Shown: in pieces, positions 5,249 through 59,067 of the stretch | Position numbering within the stretch: the stretch's first letter is position 1 | Layout of the letters: the number at the start of each line of letters is the position of its first letter | DNA from: Olsenella timonensis | GTDB lineage: Bacteria; Actinomycetota; Coriobacteriia; Coriobacteriales; Atopobiaceae | Assembly (NCBI RefSeq): GCF_900119915.1 | Contig: NZ_LT635455.1 | Coordinates: 1,612,001-1,676,000 of the forward strand | Length of the DNA stretch: 64,000 nucleotides | Direction: 5' to 3' | The notes under the pieces: generated by a model | What the model was told of the DNA's origin: nothing | What the model saw: only the letters and a program-made list of their open reading frames with translations | The model's database searches: none | Position numbers and translations under genes: made by a program

Positions 5249-5643
5249 GCTCGCTCCTTTCCTGAGGGTGCCTACCATGATGACGGGCGAACCTTCAGAA
5301 TCCGTGAGCCAACCCTAAAGAAAGTTTGAGGTTCCCTTGCATGCGCCGACAAGGCGTCGGCGCGACCCGATGGCGCAAGCGCCGCGCAAAACCCCCTCTC
5401 GTGTGATAGAACTGCGCCGCGGCAGGCAGAACCGTCTCTCGTGTGATAGGTATTCTCCCCGTGGAGAGGATTCGATTCGACTATTGATTTTTTTAACTGG
5501 GCTTTTCCGGGCGATCCTGTCATTTGCCGTAGCTCGGGCGCAAAAACTCATCACACGAGCGGACGTTTTGCTATCGAGATGGGAAAATCATCACACGGAC
5601 GGCGGTTTTGCAGTCCGACCGGAGCGAGCGAGCCCGCCCGTCG
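5249..5643. other. 395-base intergenic region carrying a four-unit inverted array
   Basis: No credible gene. The leftward promoter of the ABC operon should lie here. Most of the region is occupied by the repeat array described separately. An AT-rich stretch around 5475-5500 lies at its centre. Confidence 0.6.
5386..5611. repeat. Nested inverted array, four 22-base units (family G)
   Basis: Two direct copies of a 22-base unit ending ctctcgtgtgat start at 5386 and 5426. Two inverted copies beginning atcacacg start at 5550 and 5590. Both direct pairs are spaced exactly 40 bases start to start. The arrangement is unit-unit-centre-inverted-inverted around about 100 bases of AT-rich DNA. It lies upstream of the ABC operon and downstream of the response regulator. 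Confidence 0.75.
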
Positions 5644-6376: not shown

Positions 6377-6489
6377 AATACGCGATTGCCAACGTTTCAA
6401 GCCTCCCAAACGTTGGCAATCGCGTATTCACTCCGATTGATACGCGACTTCCAACGTTCTGGGAGCCAAAACCGTTGGAAGTCGCGTAT
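6377..6489. repeat. Tandem hairpin pair (family A/B, copy 1)
   Basis: The first hairpin has perfect 21-base arms (6377-6397 and 6408-6428, core tacgcgattgccaacgttt) and a 10-base loop. The second has perfect 17-base arms (6440-6456 and 6473-6489, core tacgcgacttccaacg). The two hairpins are closely related and offset by 62 bases. They sit 47 bases upstream of the response regulator start and downstream of the mutase gene. No T-tract follows, so they are not ordinary terminators. A second copy lies at 38287-38398. Confidence 0.85.
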
Positions 6490-6599: not shown

Positions 6600-8321
6600 C
6601 TACGACAGGATCTCCTTGGACGCGGCCTCGAGCTTGGCGCGCACGGCCTCGGACTCCGCGCGCGTGGCACCCTTGGAGAAGAGGTACGCCTTGACCTTGG
6701 GCTCCGTGCCGGACGGACGGAAGATGACCTTGTTGTCGTCCTCGAGGCGGAACTCGATGACGTTGGCGGGCGGCAGCGTCTGCGGCGCCTCCTTCTGCAG
6801 GCCGGAGACGCGCGGCATCTCGGGGCCGGTAGCGTAGTCGGTCATGCCGACGACCTTGTAGCCGGCGATCTCGGTCGGCGGGTTCTTGCGCAGGCCGTCC
6901 ATGATGGAGGCCATCTTGTCGGCGCCGGCAGCACCCGGGAAGGACGCGTTGACGGTGCCGTTGAGGTAGTAGCCGTACTTCTGGTAGAGCGCGTCCATGG
7001 CCTCGTAGAGGTCCATGCCCCGCTCGGCGTAGTACGATGCCATCTCGACGCAGAGCATCGTGGCGACGATGGCGTCCTTGTCACGGGCGTGCGTGCCCAC
7101 GAGGTAGCCGTAGGACTCCTCGAAGCCCATGAGGTAGCGGTCCTCCTCGCCCTCGTCCTTGAGCTGGTCGATCTGGTCGCCGATGTACTTGAAGCCGGTG
7201 AGCACGCGCCGCATCTCGAAGCCCCAGTCACGCGCAAGCGCGTCGGGCATGGAGGACGAGACGATCGTGGAGACGGCGACCTTGCGCGTCACGTCCTCGC
7301 CGCGGTCGCGCGCCATCGTGGCGAGCCAGTCCATGAGCAGCACGCCCATCTCGTTGCCGGAGAGCAGGACGTAGTCGCCGTCATGCGGGATGGCGGTGCC
7401 CATGCGGTCGGCGTCGGGGTCGGTGGCGACGACGAGGTTGGGCTTGACCTCCTCGGCGAGCTTGAGCGCGAGCTCGAGCGCCTCGCGGAACTCCGGGTTG
7501 GGGTAGGTGCAGGTCGGGAAGTCGCCGTCGGGCTGGGACTGCTCGGGCACCACGGAGACCTTCTCGACGCCGATCTCCTTGAGGATGCGGGTCACGAGCT
7601 CCATGCCCGTCCCGTTGAGCGGCGTGTAGACCACGGAGTAGTCGCTTCCGGCCTTGAAGCCGGGGACGGAGACCTTCTTGATGCTCTCGATGAAGCTGTC
7701 GAGGACCTCCTCGGGCGTCCACTCGATCAGGCCCTTCTCGATGCCCTCGTCGAAGTCCATGACGTTGACGGCGAACGGGTCGACGCGGGCGATGTTGGCA
7801 GAGATCTCCGCCGCCGCCTCGTCGGTGATCTGGCCGCCGTTGTCGTTGTAGACCTTGTAGCCGTTGTAGGGGGCGGGGTTGTGGGAGGCCGTGAGCACGA
7901 TGCCCGCGGAGGTGCCGAGGTGGCGCACCGCGAACGACAGCGTGGGGACCGGCTCGATGCGCGGGTAGACGTAGACGTGGATGCCGTTGGCGGCGAGCAC
8001 GCCGGCCGCCACGCGCTGGAAGTCCTCGCCCTTGTTGCGCGAGTCGCGGGCGAGCGCGAGCGTGGGGCTGTCGTAGTGGGCGTTGAGGTAGTCGGCCACG
8101 CCCTGGGTCGCCTGCGCCACCACGTAGACGTTCATGCGGTTGGTGCCCACACCGAGCGTGCCGCGAAGGCCCGCGGTGCCAAAGGCGAGATCGCGGTAGA
8201 AGGCGTCGAAGAGCTTGTCCTCGTTGCCCTCGCGGCAGAGGTCGTCGAGCTCGATCACGAGGTCGGGCTCGGTGACGTTGTCCTGCCAGGCGCTGACCTT
8301 GGCCTCAATGCTTGCGTCCAT
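6600..8321 (-). CDS. Phospho-sugar mutase (phosphoglucomutase/phosphomannomutase)
   Basis: A 573-residue enzyme of the alpha-D-phosphohexomutase family, close in length to Bacillus PgcA. It interconverts hexose-1-phosphate and hexose-6-phosphate to link glycolysis with sugar-nucleotide and glycogen synthesis. Visible motifs are the phosphoserine loop TASHNPAPYNGYK (Ser146), the metal-binding loop ATDPDADRMG near 307-316 and the phosphate-binding loop RPSGTEPKVKAY near the C-terminus. The ATG at 8321 begins MDASIEAKV and has GGGGG upstream. It is followed by the family A/B hairpins rather than a classical terminator. The exact substrate, glucose or mannose phosphate, cannot be decided from the sequence. 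Confidence 0.92.
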   Translation of the reverse strand: MDASIEAKVSAWQDNVTEPDLVIELDDLCREGNEDKLFDAFYRDLAFGTAGLRGTLGVGTNRMNVYVVAQATQGVADYLNAHYDSPTLALARDSRNKGEDFQRVAAGVLAANGIHVYVYPRIEPVPTLSFAVRHLGTSAGIVLTASHNPAPYNGYKVYNDNGGQITDEAAAEISANIARVDPFAVNVMDFDEGIEKGLIEWTPEEVLDSFIESIKKVSVPGFKAGSDYSVVYTPLNGTGMELVTRILKEIGVEKVSVVPEQSQPDGDFPTCTYPNPEFREALELALKLAEEVKPNLVVATDPDADRMGTAIPHDGDYVLLSGNEMGVLLMDWLATMARDRGEDVTRKVAVSTIVSSSMPDALARDWGFEMRRVLTGFKYIGDQIDQLKDEGEEDRYLMGFEESYGYLVGTHARDKDAIVATMLCVEMASYYAERGMDLYEAMDALYQKYGYYLNGTVNASFPGAAGADKMASIMDGLRKNPPTEIAGYKVVGMTDYATGPEMPRVSGLQKEAPQTLPPANVIEFRLEDDNKVIFRPSGTEPKVKAYLFSKGATRAESEAVRAKLEAASKEILS

Positions 8322-17529: not shown

Positions 17530-18854
17530 GCGAGCCCCTTTCGATCGGAGGGCGGAAGGACGAGCGCGAGCAGCGCCGCGACGAGGACGGGACACACCCA
17601 GCCGAGGCCCACATCGGCAAGCGGCAGGGCGCCGAGTGACACGCCCCACGCATCACAGGCGGCCTCCGCCGCGCTCGCGACGGCGGCGACGGCCACCGTC
17701 CAGCGCCAGAGGGGACCGGCGCACGCCAGCCGGCCGCGGAGCAGTCCCAGCACGACGAGCACGATGGCCACCGGGTACAGCACCCCGAGCAGCGTCGCGG
17801 AGAGGTCGATGATCGCGTCGAGCCCGAGGTTGGAGACCGCGCATGAGAAGACCGCGAAGACCAGGGCGCAGGAGCGATAGGAGACGCGCGGCAGCTCCCC
17901 GGCGAAGTAGGAGCCGCAGCAGCTGATGAGCCCGATGCAGACGTTCAGGCAGGCAAGCAGGAAGATGGCCGCGACCACCACCGTGCCCGCGACCCCGAAG
18001 TGCGCGGTCGCCGAGGCGGTGATGACCGCCGCGCCGTTGGTGACGCCGGCGAGCGCCTCGCCCTGCTCGACGCCGACCACGGCGAGGCCGCCGTAGACGG
18101 CGACCATGAGGACGCCCGCGATCGCCCCGGCGCGACAGACCTCGCGCATGACGCCGCGATCGCCCTCGACGCCGAGGCCGCGCACGTTGCTGGCGATGAC
18201 GATGCCAAAGGTGAGCGACGCGAGCAGGTCCATGGTCTGGTAGCCCGTGAGGAAGCCCTGCACGGCTGGCCCCTCGTCATAGGGGGCGACCGGGGCGACG
18301 GACGGCAGGTCGTCGGCGCCCGCGAGCGAGAGGACCGACGCCCCCACGACGAGCACGATGAGCAGGATGAGGGACGGTCCGGTCAGCCGCCCGAGCAGGC
18401 GCGTGAGCCGCCCTGGGCGCAGCGCGAGCACGAAGGCGACCACGAAGAACAGGATCGAGAACGCGAGCCGCGACGCCTCGGGCGACCACGAGGCGGGCAG
18501 CAGCGGAGAGAGCATCTCAAAGGCCGTCGAGGCCGTGCGCGGGATGGCAAGGCACGGGCCGATCGCGAGGTAGACCATGGCAACAAAGACGCGGGAGAAC
18601 AGCGGATGAACGCGCGCCGCCAGCTCGCCGAGCGTACCCGAGAGCGCCACGACGACGATGCCGAGCACCGGCAGGCCGACGCCCGCCACGAGAAAGCCGA
18701 GCAGCGCGGGCAGGGCGTCGCGCCCGGCCTGGACCCCCAGCAGCGGCGGCAGGATGAGGTTGCCCGCCCCGAAGAACATAGAGAAGAGCGTCACCCCGAC
18801 GAACAGCGACTGCCGCCGGGAGAGCCGGGCATCCGCCGGCGCGTCCGTCCCCAT
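17526..18854 (-). CDS. brnQ: Branched-chain amino acid transport system II carrier protein
   Basis: A 442-residue LIVCS-family secondary transporter with about 12 membrane helices, taking up Leu, Ile and Val with cations. The N-terminal signature FVGVTLFSMFFGAGNLILPPLLG is diagnostic. Start ATG 18854 has GAGGGGG upstream. It lies 10 bases downstream of the Tat lipoprotein gene, forming a three-gene leftward unit with the cyclophilin. Confidence 0.92.
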   Translation of the reverse strand: MGTDAPADARLSRRQSLFVGVTLFSMFFGAGNLILPPLLGVQAGRDALPALLGFLVAGVGLPVLGIVVVALSGTLGELAARVHPLFSRVFVAMVYLAIGPCLAIPRTASTAFEMLSPLLPASWSPEASRLAFSILFFVVAFVLALRPGRLTRLLGRLTGPSLILLIVLVVGASVLSLAGADDLPSVAPVAPYDEGPAVQGFLTGYQTMDLLASLTFGIVIASNVRGLGVEGDRGVMREVCRAGAIAGVLMVAVYGGLAVVGVEQGEALAGVTNGAAVITASATAHFGVAGTVVVAAIFLLACLNVCIGLISCCGSYFAGELPRVSYRSCALVFAVFSCAVSNLGLDAIIDLSATLLGVLYPVAIVLVVLGLLRGRLACAGPLWRWTVAVAAVASAAEAACDAWGVSLGALPLADVGLGWVCPVLVAALLALVLPPSDRKGLA

Positions 18855-32525: not shown

Positions 32526-32581
32526 CGGAGCAACTACGGAAAAGAGGCCAAAATACGCAGCGGTTTTCCGTAGTTGCTCCG
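32526..32581. repeat. Long hairpin (family E)
   Basis: Perfect 18-base arms, cggagcaactacggaaaa (32526-32543) and its complement (32564-32581), with a 20-base loop. It lies in the gap 32413-32719, between the ATPase terminator and rsgA, about 115 bases upstream of rsgA. No gene is otherwise seen in that gap. Confidence 0.85.
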
Positions 32582-38286: not shown

Positions 38287-38398
38287 AATACGCGACTTCA
38301 ATCGTTTTTGGCCCTACAAACGTTGGCAATCGCGTATTCGTCAGACTCAGTACGCAACTTCCAACGTTTCAAGCCTTCGAGACGTTGGAAGTTGCGTA
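38287..38398. repeat. Tandem hairpin pair (family A/B, copy 2)
   Basis: The first hairpin (38287-38338) has the same arms as the copy at 6377 with a few mismatches. The second has perfect 17-base arms (38351-38367 and 38382-38398, core tacgcaacttccaacgt). The two hairpins are offset by 62 bases as in copy 1. They sit between the pyk terminator and the 3' end of the convergent HNH gene. Confidence 0.85.
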
Positions 38399-38453
38399 TC
38401 ACAGAACCCCGCTCAGCCACGCCGCAGCAGAGAGACAAAGCTCGCAGCACTCC

Positions 38454-40279: not shown

Positions 40280-40398
40280 GTCCTTAAAATCGAGGCTGTG
40301 GCAAGCTCGTGGCGCCACAGCCTCGTTTTTAAGGACAGTCAGCCGCAAAGCTGCAGGTAAGGTTTTCCCCTCCGTGCCGCAGCCTCGATTTTCAGGAC
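40280..40398. repeat. Inverted-unit array (family C/D, copy 1; three units)
   Basis: A hairpin with 23-base arms (40280-40302 and 40314-40336, one mismatch; core ccttaaaatcgaggctgtgg) is followed by a further inverted unit at 40374-40398. It fills the gap between convergent ucpA and the GH13 gene. The same unit occurs four times at 47532-47670. Confidence 0.8.
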
Positions 40399-46093: not shown

Positions 46094-47173
46094 CTAGAAC
46101 TGCCTCAGGAAGCGCATGTCGCCGGTCATGAGCATGCGCAGGTCGGGCAGGTCGTAGCGCAGGCACGCGATGCGCTCGACGCCCATGCCAAAGGCGAAGC
46201 CGGTGTACCTCTCGGAGTCGATGCCGCAGTACTCGAGGACGTTGGGGTCCACCATGCCGGCGCCCAGGATCTCCAGCCACCCGGTGCCCTTGCAGAAGCG
46301 ACAGCCCTTGCCGCCGCAGACGCCGCAGGAGACGTCGACCTCGCAGCTGGGCTCGGTGAACGGGAAGAAGTGCGGGCGGTAGCGCGTGGCGCGGTCCTCG
46401 CCGAAGACCTGGCGCAGGAAGTAGTCCATCGTGCCCTTGAAGTCCCCGAAGGTGATGCCCTCGTCCACGACGAGGCCCTCCACCTGCGTGAACTGCGGCA
46501 GGTGGTTGGCGTCGGCGGTATCCGGGCGGAAGACCGTGCCCGGGCAGATCATGTAGATGGGCGGCTTCTGGCGCTCCATGACGTGCACCTGCACGCCCGA
46601 GGTCTGGGTACGCAGGAGGATGTCGGACTCGCCCTGGACGTTGGTCTCCTCGGCATGCAGCATGGTGCCGGGCGCGTTGTCAACCACGTAGAAGGTGTCC
46701 TTTGCCGAGCGGCTGGGGTGGTCCTCCGGGGCGTTGAGCGCGGTGAAGTTGTACCAGGTGCTCTCCACGTAGGGACCGTCCTCGACGGTGTAGCCCAGGC
46801 CGCAGAAGATGTCCTCGATCTCCTCGCGGATCCGCCCGATCAGGTGCTGGGTGCCCTGGGAGACCCGACGGCCCGGCAGCGTCACGTCCACGGCGTCGGC
46901 TGCCATCCTCTGCTCCAGCAGGGCGGCGGAGAGCTCCTCGCGCCGAGCCTTGAGCGCGGCGTCCACGTTGGCGCGCACGGTGTTGGCAAGCTGGCCCATG
47001 GCCGGCCGCTCCTCGGGGGGCACCTGGCCCATCGAGCGCATGATGGCCGTGAGCTGGCCCTTCTTGCCCAGGAAGCTCACGCGCAGCGTCTCCAGGGCCT
47101 CCATGGTCTCGGCGGCGGCCAGGCCCTGCTGGAACTGGGCCTCGATCGCCTTGAGGTCGTCGGACATCGACAT
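46094..47173 (-). CDS. pheS: Phenylalanine-tRNA ligase alpha subunit
   Basis: A 359-residue catalytic subunit: an N-terminal coiled-coil tRNA-binding region (1-95), then the class II core with HPAR-like motif HPSRSAKDTFY, motif 2 around GTVFRPDTADANHLPQFTQVEG, and motif 3 GFAFGMGVERIACLRYDLPDLR. The ATG at 47173 has GAAGGG upstream; a second ATG two codons later is possible. It is the first gene of the T-box-regulated pheST operon. Confidence 0.97.
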   Translation of the reverse strand: MSMSDDLKAIEAQFQQGLAAAETMEALETLRVSFLGKKGQLTAIMRSMGQVPPEERPAMGQLANTVRANVDAALKARREELSAALLEQRMAADAVDVTLPGRRVSQGTQHLIGRIREEIEDIFCGLGYTVEDGPYVESTWYNFTALNAPEDHPSRSAKDTFYVVDNAPGTMLHAEETNVQGESDILLRTQTSGVQVHVMERQKPPIYMICPGTVFRPDTADANHLPQFTQVEGLVVDEGITFGDFKGTMDYFLRQVFGEDRATRYRPHFFPFTEPSCEVDVSCGVCGGKGCRFCKGTGWLEILGAGMVDPNVLEYCGIDSERYTGFAFGMGVERIACLRYDLPDLRMLMTGDMRFLRQF

Positions 47174-47193
47174 CGCACAATCCCTTCTCTACT

Positions 47194-47490
47194 AAAAAAC
47201 CGCCCTTCGGCAGCCCTGCTGCTGCCCAAGGACGGAATGATCCGCGGTACCACCTCGGTTGGCGCGACGGGTTGTCTCCCCCGGGCGCCCGCTCGCTCCG
47301 CCCCGTGCCGTGGGGCTGACGGCTTCCCTACTTGACAGGTCAAAAGGGGACAGTCCCCTTTTGACCCACGTTCAGGTCGCGGCTGGTGGAGTGAACTCCG
47401 GGCCTCTGCCTTGGAGGGGGCTCTCAGCCGGTGACCCCCGTCTCTGTCCGCTGGCAACGCGACGCCCAGACCTCTCCGTCATCGCCTGCG
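47194..47490 (-). promoter_or_regulatory. tRNA-Phe T-box riboswitch controlling pheST
   Basis: On the minus strand the leader contains a specifier hairpin GGAGTTCACTCC (47388-47399) exposing UUC, the conserved T-box CCGAGGTGGTACCGCGG near 47241-47260, and a terminator (CCGTCCTTGGGCAGC pairing with GCTGCCGAAGGGCGG, then six T) at 47194-47235. The UGGU bulge matches the ACCA end of tRNA-Phe. Uncharged tRNA-Phe should favour antitermination. A 29-base palindrome sits between the specifier and antiterminator regions. The rest of the gap 47174-47762 holds the family C/D array. Confidence 0.93.
47338..47366. repeat. Perfect palindrome inside the T-box leader
   Basis: ggtcaaaagggga and tccccttttgacc are perfect 13-base arms around three bases. 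The GGGGACAGTCCCC core resembles dispersed REP-type palindromes known from many bacteria. It may be an insertion into the variable linker of the riboswitch. Confidence 0.8.
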
Positions 47491-47531
47491 TGACATGGTA
47501 GCACAGGCGGCGCCCGCGGGTTACCACGCGC

Positions 47532-47670
47532 GTCCTGAAAAACGAGGCCGCGGCACGTCCTTCTCGGCTGGTGTCCTGAAAAACGGAGCTGTGGCACGTT
47601 TGGCGTGCCGTAGGTTCGATTTTCAGGACAGTTTGAACGGATTCCGTGCCGCAGGCTCGATTTTCAGGAC
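47532..47670. repeat. Nested inverted array (family C/D, copy 2; four units)
   Basis: Two direct 25-base units (gtcctgaaaaacgagg...) start at 47532 and 47573. Two inverted units (...cgattttcaggac) start at 47605 and 47646. Spacing is 41 bases in each pair, giving an outer pair enclosing an inner hairpin. It lies between the lipase-like gene end and the pheST leader. The same unit is seen at 40280-40398. Confidence 0.85.
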
Positions 47671-47762
47671 GCGTGATGGGAACTGGACAGACGCGGCAGG
47701 GCGGTACATACGCAGCAGAGGCAGACGCAGCCCCAGGCGAGAAGAGCGCCCGCAGGGCCCGG

Positions 47763-49064
47763 CTACGAGAACGTGAGGTCCGCCGCCGTGGTGGCGTCGA
47801 GCCAGGCGATGTAGGTGTTGGGATAGTGGCTCGCGAGCAGCCGCCCCACGTCGACGCCGAGGCACGCCTGGACCAGCGACGCGAGCCCGGCGGGCGTGAC
47901 CAGCTCGTCGAAGCTCGACACCGACGCGCCCACGCGCTCGACGAGCTCGACGGCGGCGGCACGGTCATCCTCCGTCACGGGGCAGTCCGCCCCCATCGAC
48001 GCCGCGTAGGAGGAACGCATCTCGTCGGTCGCCGCGTCGTCGCCCATCTGGGGCAGCCACACGTCGCGGCCGTATCGCCGGTAGCCCCAGCTCTCGAGCG
48101 GGAGCATCGTGACCACGTCGGACGGGTTGAGGACGTTGAAGATGTTGTCGTAGCGCGCGTCGCGTGCGTCGGCCGCCGAGGTGCAGTTGGGCGTCGCAAA
48201 GCCATAGGCGCGCACGGACTCCGCGGAGGTGATGGCACCCGAGCCCCCGGAGGCGCCGTCCGCGTAGCTCGCGAGCAGGTTCGCCACCGCGGCACCGCGA
48301 CTGTGGCCGCAGAACAGGTACGTCCGCTCGACGTCAGGGTCCTCCGCCGCGGCGCGCCGCTCCAGGTCGGCGACGATCTCCTCCGCGGCGAGCGTGAAGC
48401 CGAGGTGGTCGCCGCCGTCCCCCTCTGTCCCGGCACCCTCGATCCGGGCGTTGGAGAGCCACTCCGACCCGTACGAGCCGCGCACCATCACGACGGTCAG
48501 CAGCTTCTCCGCGCCGGTCTGCGACGAGCGCACGCGCCGGGTCGCCACGGTGTAGGCGACCACGTCCGTGCCGTCCACGATGCCGAGCACCTCGTCCATG
48601 ACCTCGCTGCGATAGCGGTACGACGAGGTCTCGACCTCCTCGAACCCAAGGTCGGCGAGAGCGTGCTCGGCATAGGCCGGCGCGGTCGAGCCCTGCTGGT
48701 AGTAGGCGCTCTCGGCGTTGGCGACGGCCGAAAGCACGGCGCAGGTGTGCGCGAGCTCGTGGTTGTAGGTCGTCGGGTCCTCGAAGAACCAGTCGTCGTC
48801 CCAGGAGACCTCGGAGGTTACCCGATGGCCCTCCGCCGAGAAGAGCGCGGCGTACTCGACGGTCGTCGTGAAGGCGCCCTGACGGCGCGCGGCGACGAGC
48901 TCGGGGGCCGTGACGGCGTTGGTGCCGCTGACGCGCTCGAGTCGGCGGGCGTGCAGCACCGCGGCCCCGGCAAGGGTGGCGCTGTCGGCCAGCGCGACGG
49001 TCACGAGCAGGGCGAGCAGTGCCCGCCGCCCGCGGCCTCGTCGTCCTTCTCGACGTCGTGACAT
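47763..49064 (-). CDS. Secreted class 3 lipase-like / Mbeg1-like protein
   Basis: A 433-residue protein with a basic N-terminus and a signal-anchor helix (about 14-37). The alpha/beta hydrolase region carries GHSRG (nucleophile Ser255) in LFCGHSRGAAVANLLASYA, with an Asp in LNPSDVV and a late His in SHYPNTYIAWL as plausible triad members. This resembles class 3 lipase and Mbeg1-like families. The substrate is unknown. GGGAGGGG precedes the ATG at 49064 and forms one arm of an inverted repeat. Confidence 0.75.
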   Translation of the reverse strand: MSRRREGRRGRGRRALLALLVTVALADSATLAGAAVLHARRLERVSGTNAVTAPELVAARRQGAFTTTVEYAALFSAEGHRVTSEVSWDDDWFFEDPTTYNHELAHTCAVLSAVANAESAYYQQGSTAPAYAEHALADLGFEEVETSSYRYRSEVMDEVLGIVDGTDVVAYTVATRRVRSSQTGAEKLLTVVMVRGSYGSEWLSNARIEGAGTEGDGGDHLGFTLAAEEIVADLERRAAAEDPDVERTYLFCGHSRGAAVANLLASYADGASGGSGAITSAESVRAYGFATPNCTSAADARDARYDNIFNVLNPSDVVTMLPLESWGYRRYGRDVWLPQMGDDAATDEMRSSYAASMGADCPVTEDDRAAAVELVERVGASVSSFDELVTPAGLASLVQACLGVDVGRLLASHYPNTYIAWLDATTAADLTFS

Positions 49065-58942: not shown

Positions 58943-59067
58943 ATTATCTGGGTACTTTTTGGGCCCCCATGGAAGTAGCCGTCAAGCGGACACGCCAGCT
59001 ACCAGCGTCTCTGCAGGGCGGCAGGGGCCGGATACTTCGGGGGCACTCAGAAAAGTACCCAGATAAT
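58943..59067. repeat. Large imperfect palindrome (family F) in a 409-base gap
   Basis: attatctgggtactttt (58943-58959) and its exact complement (59051-59067) flank 91 bases in which further weaker complementarity continues inward (near ggaagta and tacttcg). It lies in the gap 58803-59211 between divergent deoR and the aldolase fragment. The remaining gap holds an AT-rich stretch near 58840-58890, the probable deoR promoter, and no gene. Confidence 0.8.

Follow-up and report, generated by a model that had tools for sequence, protein, structure and literature searches.

RAYT proteins are the Y1 HUH transposases of REP elements. In REPIN/RAYT systems the gene has its own flanking repeats, copies of these are dispersed, and the repeats fall into lineage-specific classes (PMC2817692, PMC3116915, PMC8266576, PMC8049555). 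The foot of the REP palindrome carries a GTAG/CGTC tag (PMC3733652), and insertion sequence (IS) elements are often inserted at REP sequences (Tobes and Pareja 2006; PMC1525189). Inverted repeats of 23 bp are the binding sites of AbiEi (two repeats) and Rv2827c (four) (PMC7319586), and the target on which the EDxHD homing endonuclease I-Bth0305I dimerises is nearly 60 bp long (PMC3943268).

The present analysis concerns nested arrays of short units in the window, the whole stretch of 64,000 nucleotides that was analysed. In the reading preferred here, to which a probability of roughly 0.6 is given, the array would be a multi-site recognition element for a protein of an AbiEi-like/EDxHD (Vsr-like)-nuclease family, maintained or spread with the help of its cognate protein. 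No description of a pairing of such arrays with these proteins was found in the open-access literature; subscription papers were not covered.

Results

A nested array and its unit in the genome

A preliminary description had proposed a four-unit nested array with 41-base spacing on both sides, and four 26-bp units were located exactly there, at 47532-47670. They stand in the order ++--, with starts at +0 +41 -72 -113 and hence steps of 41, 31 and 41 bp:

47532 to 47557, plus strand, C/D unit 1, GTCCTGAAAAACGAGGCCGCGGCACG
47573 to 47598, plus strand, C/D unit 2, +41 from unit 1
47604 to 47629, minus strand, C/D unit 3, inverted, +31 from unit 2
47645 to 47670, minus strand, C/D unit 4, inverted, +41 from unit 3

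The three-unit relative claimed at 40280-40398 does exist, between two convergent ORFs, but its layout is 0/-31/-93 and includes no 41-base step:

40280 to 40305, plus strand, unit 1 of the second C/D array
40311 to 40336, minus strand, unit 2, +31
40373 to 40398, minus strand, unit 3, +62

Searching the 2,176,737-base genome (G000) with the 26-base C/D pattern and allowing up to 3 mismatches gave 35 matches; the reversed pattern, used as a control, gave none. One array is completed by a further unit, the 36th, which has 4 mismatches. The 36 units occupy 12 places, namely 11 arrays of 3-4 units and a lone unit at 913302; a lone match with 6 mismatches at 908098 was left out of the count as chance. 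The ends of the unit read GTCCTG...GGCACG. Across the 11 arrays the letters of the spacers are mostly unlike while their lengths are kept; the spacers of the arrays at 17612 and 18934 are alike. Inspection by eye of the 11 C/D arrays of G000, whose outer ends are inverted, revealed no target-site duplication around them, and movement of the arrays is therefore not proved.

In arrays of type 0/-31/-93, a semi-conserved motif near CGAGAAAnCCGCAGGTCG occurs in the 36-bp gap (window 40337-40372, for example), perhaps a diverged fourth unit or the site of a second protein. Rfam gave no match in 46900-48000 at gathering thresholds, and a T-box leader beside the array, a guess without support at these thresholds, was rejected.

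The steps within the 11 C/D arrays of G000 are 31, 40-41 or 62 bp. Five of these arrays have the layout +0 +40 -81, its mirror or a 41/41 variant, two have +0 +41 -72 -113, and four have +0 -31 -93 or its mirror. Spacing that varied freely among other copies would have refuted the common geometry proposed in the preliminary description. The proposal survives this comparison: in seven genomes of the genus, 49 clusters keep to steps of 30-32, 39-42 or 62-63 bp, the sole other step (57 bp) falling at a visible deletion (L068). Among the 49 are 10 single units and 4 two-unit clusters, several cut by contig ends. The forms seen in the genus are +0 +40/41 -81/82, +0 +41 -72 -113, and +0 -31 -93 and its mirror, with expanded forms of up to +0 +41 +82 -123 -164 -205. 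GTCCT stands at the outer ends in C/D arrays with both ends visible.

The gene enclosed by C/D arrays and its predicted protein

Two complete C/D arrays (L001:7613 and L001:8935) enclose a 368-aa gene outside the window (G000:C1:17754-18857), and one C/D array lies 77-183 bp upstream of the gene start. An AlphaFold2 model of the protein has a mean pLDDT of 91. Residues 181-306 superimpose on the catalytic domain of I-Bth0305I (3r3p; Z 9.6, rmsd 2.8, 95 of 97 aligned). Residues 1-176 align with AbiEi (6y8q), over the C-terminal part of AbiEi only (Z 7.4, rmsd 3.6, 119 aligned), and a Z of 7.4 is in the range that possibly means only a common arrangement. Foldseek alone returned no match at E ≤ 0.001, and a search of PDB sequences gave weak matches only, among them 3r3p at E 0.48. 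The protein is predicted to combine an AbiEi-antitoxin-like domain with an EDxHD/Vsr-like nuclease domain in which the active-site residues are kept.

Among C/D-type proteins the columns E184 (32/32), D228 (31/32), H256 (32/32) and D265 (29/32) are conserved; their assignment to the E-D-x-H-D motif is our own mapping. A second subfamily, described below, has E224, D258, E272 and K278, and a histidine at the matching place was not found. Pfam matches among 32 family members were all weak: MTES_1575 (14), DUF559 (2) and DUF2726 (1), of which MTES_1575 is a Vsr-family nuclease domain (PMC3710099). None of the 32 matched a Y1/HUH transposase in Pfam; the predicted folds match AbiEi and an EDxHD nuclease. 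PADLOC reported a weak AbiEi match (E 0.029) for one of four proteins.

Private arrays beside other family genes

Other members of the family also have flanking arrays, with different unit words and a like kind of spacing. When the 450-bp flanks of 46 database loci were scored, a repeat score of ≥15 was reached upstream in 32/46 and downstream in 36/43, against 1/40 and 3/39 distant segments and 0/46 and 0/43 shuffles. Of 43 loci with both flanks, 26 scored on both, 13 on one and 4 on none. The score takes any repeat, and the near and far loci include orthologues, so they are not independent. Here and in the two comparisons that follow, repeats of low complexity were skipped, as were segments of insufficient length for scoring. 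The second subfamily behaves likewise (upstream 17/30, downstream 27/30; distant 2/27 and 0/29; shuffles 0/30 and 0/30), as do 19 loci from other genera (near 11/19 and 13/17; distant 2/18 and 1/17; shuffles 0/19 and 0/17). The latter set consists of 18 of 23 new loci and a Gordonibacter locus (L171), 5 loci of the same genus being excluded; at these loci there is often one inverted pair about 90-135 bp apart instead of an array.

The A1 profile finds nine family genes in G000, two of them copies of a single gene. For eight of the nine, a repeat of the gene's own word lies nearby; gene 1264778 has no flanking array. A copy pair of one such word stands apart from its gene, at L005:12621, and another word recurs in the window, in the array at 5387. 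For four further array words of G000, the 263 kb searched contained no copy distant from the gene, which slightly lowers confidence in the preferred reading. One family gene is present twice (G000:C1:2081098-2081910 and 2175447-2176259), with the same flanking repeats and in opposite orientation, perhaps within a larger inverted duplication. Separately, a short GGCGAGAAGGGC/GCCCTTCTCGCC motif recurs in intergenic DNA beside arrays (e.g., L001 about 7560-7600 and L124:2135-2247), and beside the family gene G000:726645 it forms a 13-bp tandem array.

The window contains further array families:

5387 to 5448, plus strand, two units 40 bp apart of a CAAAACnnnnnCTCGTGTGATR array
5549 to 5610, minus strand, two inverted units 40 bp apart of the same array
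6378 to 6489, strands + - + -, ATACGCGAYTKCCAACGTT array, 0/31/62/93
38288 to 38399, strands + - + -, second ATACGCGA array, 0/31/62/93

The array at 5387-5610 is laid out +0 +40 -162 -202 (40/122/40) and is taken to be family G of the preliminary description. One flank of the paralogue G000:1913592, which encodes 336 aa, carries (at L120:1203-1426) the same unit in the same layout with a different spacer sequence. The ATACGCGA family (6378 and 38288) has 34 pattern matches, with 0 in controls, and takes the form + - + - at 0/31/62/93 in 11 of 12 clusters, the remaining cluster having two units. An array of this type adjoins the 3' end of a more distant relative, G000:1292544-1293617 (358 aa), for which no Pfam family was found. 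The model of this protein (pLDDT 88) aligns with the whole of AbiEi (6y8q; Z 11.6, rmsd 6.5, 181 residues), a moderate Z for a predicted model, and with 3r3p (Z 9.6, 97 of 97 residues). It belongs to the second subfamily, whose homology with the C/D-type subfamily rests on a comparison of profiles (E 6e-6 for a single comparison, probability 85, 220 columns).

Array families can thus be correlated with paralogous proteins, as had been proposed: C/D with the gene at 17754, the 40-base family with 1913592 and the 31-bp pitch with 1292544. The earlier suggestion of one mechanism with different specificities, for example through related DNA-binding proteins, gains support from homologous proteins whose flanking units differ; binding itself is inferred. 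Two isolated inverted pairs also occur in the window, ATTATCTGGGTACTTTT at 58943-59067 (108 bp apart), which resembles the single-pair form beside other family genes, and CGGAGCAACTACGGAAAA at 32526-32581 (38 bp apart).

In the flanks of 43 family genes, adjacent units of the same orientation (n = 240) are 41 (106), 31 (50), 42 (34), 62 (20), 30 (9) or 40 (7) bp apart, with 14 other steps. Adjacent units of opposite orientation are 20-114 bp apart, a distance that is not fixed and varies widely among families. The dominant step per gene (n = 42) fits a period of 10.45 bp (R 0.96); the fit depends chiefly on two clusters (31 and 41), and there was no null model. Steps of 31, 41 and 62 bp correspond to about 3, 4 and 6 turns of DNA. 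Of the geometry said to be common to different units, the fixed steps stand, but a single 41-base rule does not, the steps being near 31, 41 or other fixed values.

Co-divergence of unit and protein, and a change of unit

Over 43 of 45 loci, unit similarity is correlated with protein identity (Mantel r 0.439, with 0/2000 permutations as high). L149 and L151 were dropped for a unit score under 19, L171 was not included, and the orthologues present are not independent. Units were similar in 13/13 pairs above 80% protein identity, in 78% of 18 pairs at 65-80% and in 10% of 118 pairs at 55-65%, falling to about 1% or less below. The N-terminal and C-terminal parts of the protein are correlated with the units about equally (0.418 and 0.404).

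Because close pairs share ancestry, a switch of unit in trans is stronger evidence than the Mantel result. The GTTCCCAAAA pattern has 42 matches in genome G026, 1 in G010 and 0 in G000, G014, G028, G009, G030 and the controls; the GTCCTKAAAA pattern has 4 matches in G026 and 32 in G000. The units flanking G026's own family gene are of the GTTCCC type. One array site has orthologous flanks in three genomes: its units are of the GTCCTG type in G000 and G014, and in G026 two of the three are of the GTTCCC type. G026 has changed its unit almost genome-wide, along with the arrays at its own gene.

Presence and absence of arrays, and IS insertions

At the pheS-lipase site two conserved anchors are 291 bp apart in G000, which has a C/D array between them. 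They are separated by 318 bp in G014 (array of another unit), by 106 bp in G028 (a single C/D-like unit) and by 17 bp in G026 and G009, which have no array. A clean empty site with a target duplication was not found there, and G030, which has another gene at this place, was not comparable. The array of G014 (L173:2748-2950) takes the place of the C/D array in this window; it reads +0 +40 -151 -190 and is partly like the CAAAAC..CTCGTGTGATR family.

Several contigs of G028 break where an element ends inside a C/D array. The copy in G029 includes a complete ORF encoding rve and HTH_21 domains, and from these Pfam domains we take the element to be IS3-like. As many contigs had been fetched by unit, ends were counted from the IS search alone; 5 were found in G028 and 6 in G026, and one had no flank in its contig, leaving 10 readable. 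A C/D-type unit (≤2 mismatches) lies within 150 bp of the IS end in 6/10 (4/4 in G028, 2/6 in G026; contig ends L282-L292, L040-L046), and pieces 300-450 bp from IS ends reach 5 mismatches at best. In three of the six, a gap of 5-6 nt separates the IS end from a unit's inner end. The arrays are a frequent, not exclusive, landing site of the IS. That every IS end of G026 and G028 abuts a unit was rejected on the unbiased count of 6/10, and no IS end was detected in G000, which has 36 units.

Distribution of the family and of its arrays

Of 197 genomes sampled from the order, 162 contain the family (E ≤ 1e-20), and all 31 genomes of the genus have relatives, with 5 to 18 matches each. Named relatives are mostly from Olsenella, Thermophilibacter and other Atopobiaceae. 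The C/D pattern occurs in 8/31 genus genomes, G024 having one match with 1 mismatch and G030 two matches. Several C/D arrays are at orthologous sites across species, with units kept and with a large part of the spacers and flanks diverged. G010 has C/D arrays, and a close cognate gene was not found in its draft (best 40% identity; 90% complete); this counts against a strict gene-array pairing, unless the draft lacks the gene.

A family gene adjoins mfd in 16 of 62 loci compared, opposite to mfd in L087, L091, L126, L128, L142, L153, L154 and L158 and in the same orientation in L136-L138, L143, L148, L150, L152 and L161. L087 is the C/D gene of G000, and L091 and L153 represent a single G026 gene present in two collections. 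The mfd locus of G028 (Ca. Olsenella stercoravium) holds another paralogue (L154, 50%). The C/D gene of that genome (L127) lacks both mfd-locus neighbours within the 2.5 kb that can be read on one side, and the other side ends after about 200 bp. No nucleotidyltransferase toxin gene is present at the mfd locus, where the neighbours are mfd and a glycosidase; this applies to this locus only.

Discussion

Proposed mechanism and alternative explanations

In the preferred reading, each array would be recognised by a protein from one member of a large family. Most of the family genes examined have arrays of their own unit alongside, and at least four families of G000 also have copies elsewhere in the genome. 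Units of the same orientation every 3, 4 or 6 helical turns, arranged in inverted blocks, may place several copies of the protein on one face of double-stranded DNA. As REPIN/RAYT suggests by analogy, the cognate protein most likely helps to maintain, spread or homogenise the arrays, and it probably nicks or cuts at or near them through the conserved active site, for which there are no cleavage data. Binding, cutting and protein-driven spread are inferences; what has been observed is the association, the different words for different genes, the spacing, the co-divergence, the unit switch in one species and the presence or absence at one site. A more far-reaching form of the reading is tentative, with odds somewhat short of even. 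It holds that Coriobacteriales have a new self-spreading repeat system, a non-homologous counterpart of REPIN/RAYT, in which AbiEi/EDxHD nuclease genes each recognise and propagate their own helically phased array and specificity has switched repeatedly and genome-wide.

The main rival is a purely regulatory role, which is judged unlikely. The protein would be an AbiEi-like repressor acting on the flanking arrays as operators, with the dispersed arrays forming a regulon or serving as decoys; its nuclease domain would have some other role, and nothing would move. AbiEi and Rv2827c do autoregulate through inverted 23-bp repeats (PMC7319586), and an array lies 77-183 bp upstream of the C/D gene start. 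Several arrays are conserved in position, and the persistence of many arrays at one site in several species fits a fixed regulatory role as well. Against it, downstream arrays are at least as common as upstream ones (36/43 vs 32/46; 27/30 vs 17/30), the window arrays at 40280 and 38288 lie between convergent gene ends, and the pheS-lipase anchor distance varies (291/318/106/17 bp) with the presence of the array.

Less probable still is a role in defence, in which the nuclease would attack incoming DNA and the genomic arrays would label self or titrate the enzyme. AbiEi and Vsr-like domains are found in conflict systems (PMC3710099, PMC7319586), and many diverging paralogues with different units would suit such a role. 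Against it, the neighbours at the mfd locus, the only locus concerned, are mfd and a glycosidase, with no defence genes, and PADLOC gave only the weak AbiEi match (E 0.029) for one of four proteins.

The arrays might also be passive MITE- or REP-like repeats moved by an unrelated transposase, such as that of the IS3-type element, with the link to the genes incidental. The presence of this element at array units in 6/10 readable ends (G028, G026) is in keeping with the idea, which is nevertheless disfavoured and given very little weight: the IS end was undetected in G000 despite 36 units, the IS ends are unlike the units, and the idea does not account for the arrays beside the genes, for the Mantel correlation or for the switch of unit. 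Equally little credence is given to RNA-level elements (terminators or hairpins) under selection for pairing, for although inverted units can pair and facing units are slightly more alike than reshuffled ones (114/2000 shuffles as low; not significant), the test falls short of significance, hairpin covariation is weak, Rfam gave no match at gathering thresholds in 46900-48000, and hairpins have no need of evenly spaced direct-repeat blocks.

The finding links a large, functionally uncharacterised family to specific DNA arrays, usually with a different word for each gene. The many natural protein-DNA pairs would be material for working out a recognition code, and the role of AbiEi/Vsr-like fusions becomes directly testable. 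The system is possibly a second, independent bacterial route to dispersed repeat populations.

Comparison with known systems

The IS elements that target REP sequences resemble the IS3-like element, which is often found at the repeats; the array targeted in the present case is of a different, phased kind, and not all of the IS copies are in arrays. I-Bth0305I shares the fold of its catalytic domain with the C/D protein (Z 9.6), but the family genes stand alone between genes, beside multi-site arrays, and their DNA-binding part is AbiEi-like and not NUMOD. The AbiEi proteins (S. agalactiae AbiEi, Rv2827c) are alike in the predicted N-terminal fold, which in the ATACGCGA-family protein extends to the whole of AbiEi, and in having inverted repeats of similar length near their own gene (PMC7319586). 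They differ in that the family protein is fused to a nuclease domain, the arrays are also downstream and dispersed, and no toxin gene lies between the family gene and its neighbours at the mfd locus.

As in REPIN/RAYT, the C/D and ATACGCGA repeats flank their own gene, are dispersed between genes and fall into lineage-specific classes. In contrast to RAYT, the family protein has no Y1/HUH match and is predicted to be AbiEi-like with an EDxHD nuclease; the C/D units are phased in nested inverted blocks, and their ends lack the GTAG/CGTC tag. REPIN/RAYT is the closest working analogue of the arrays described here, but the enzyme and the tag differ.
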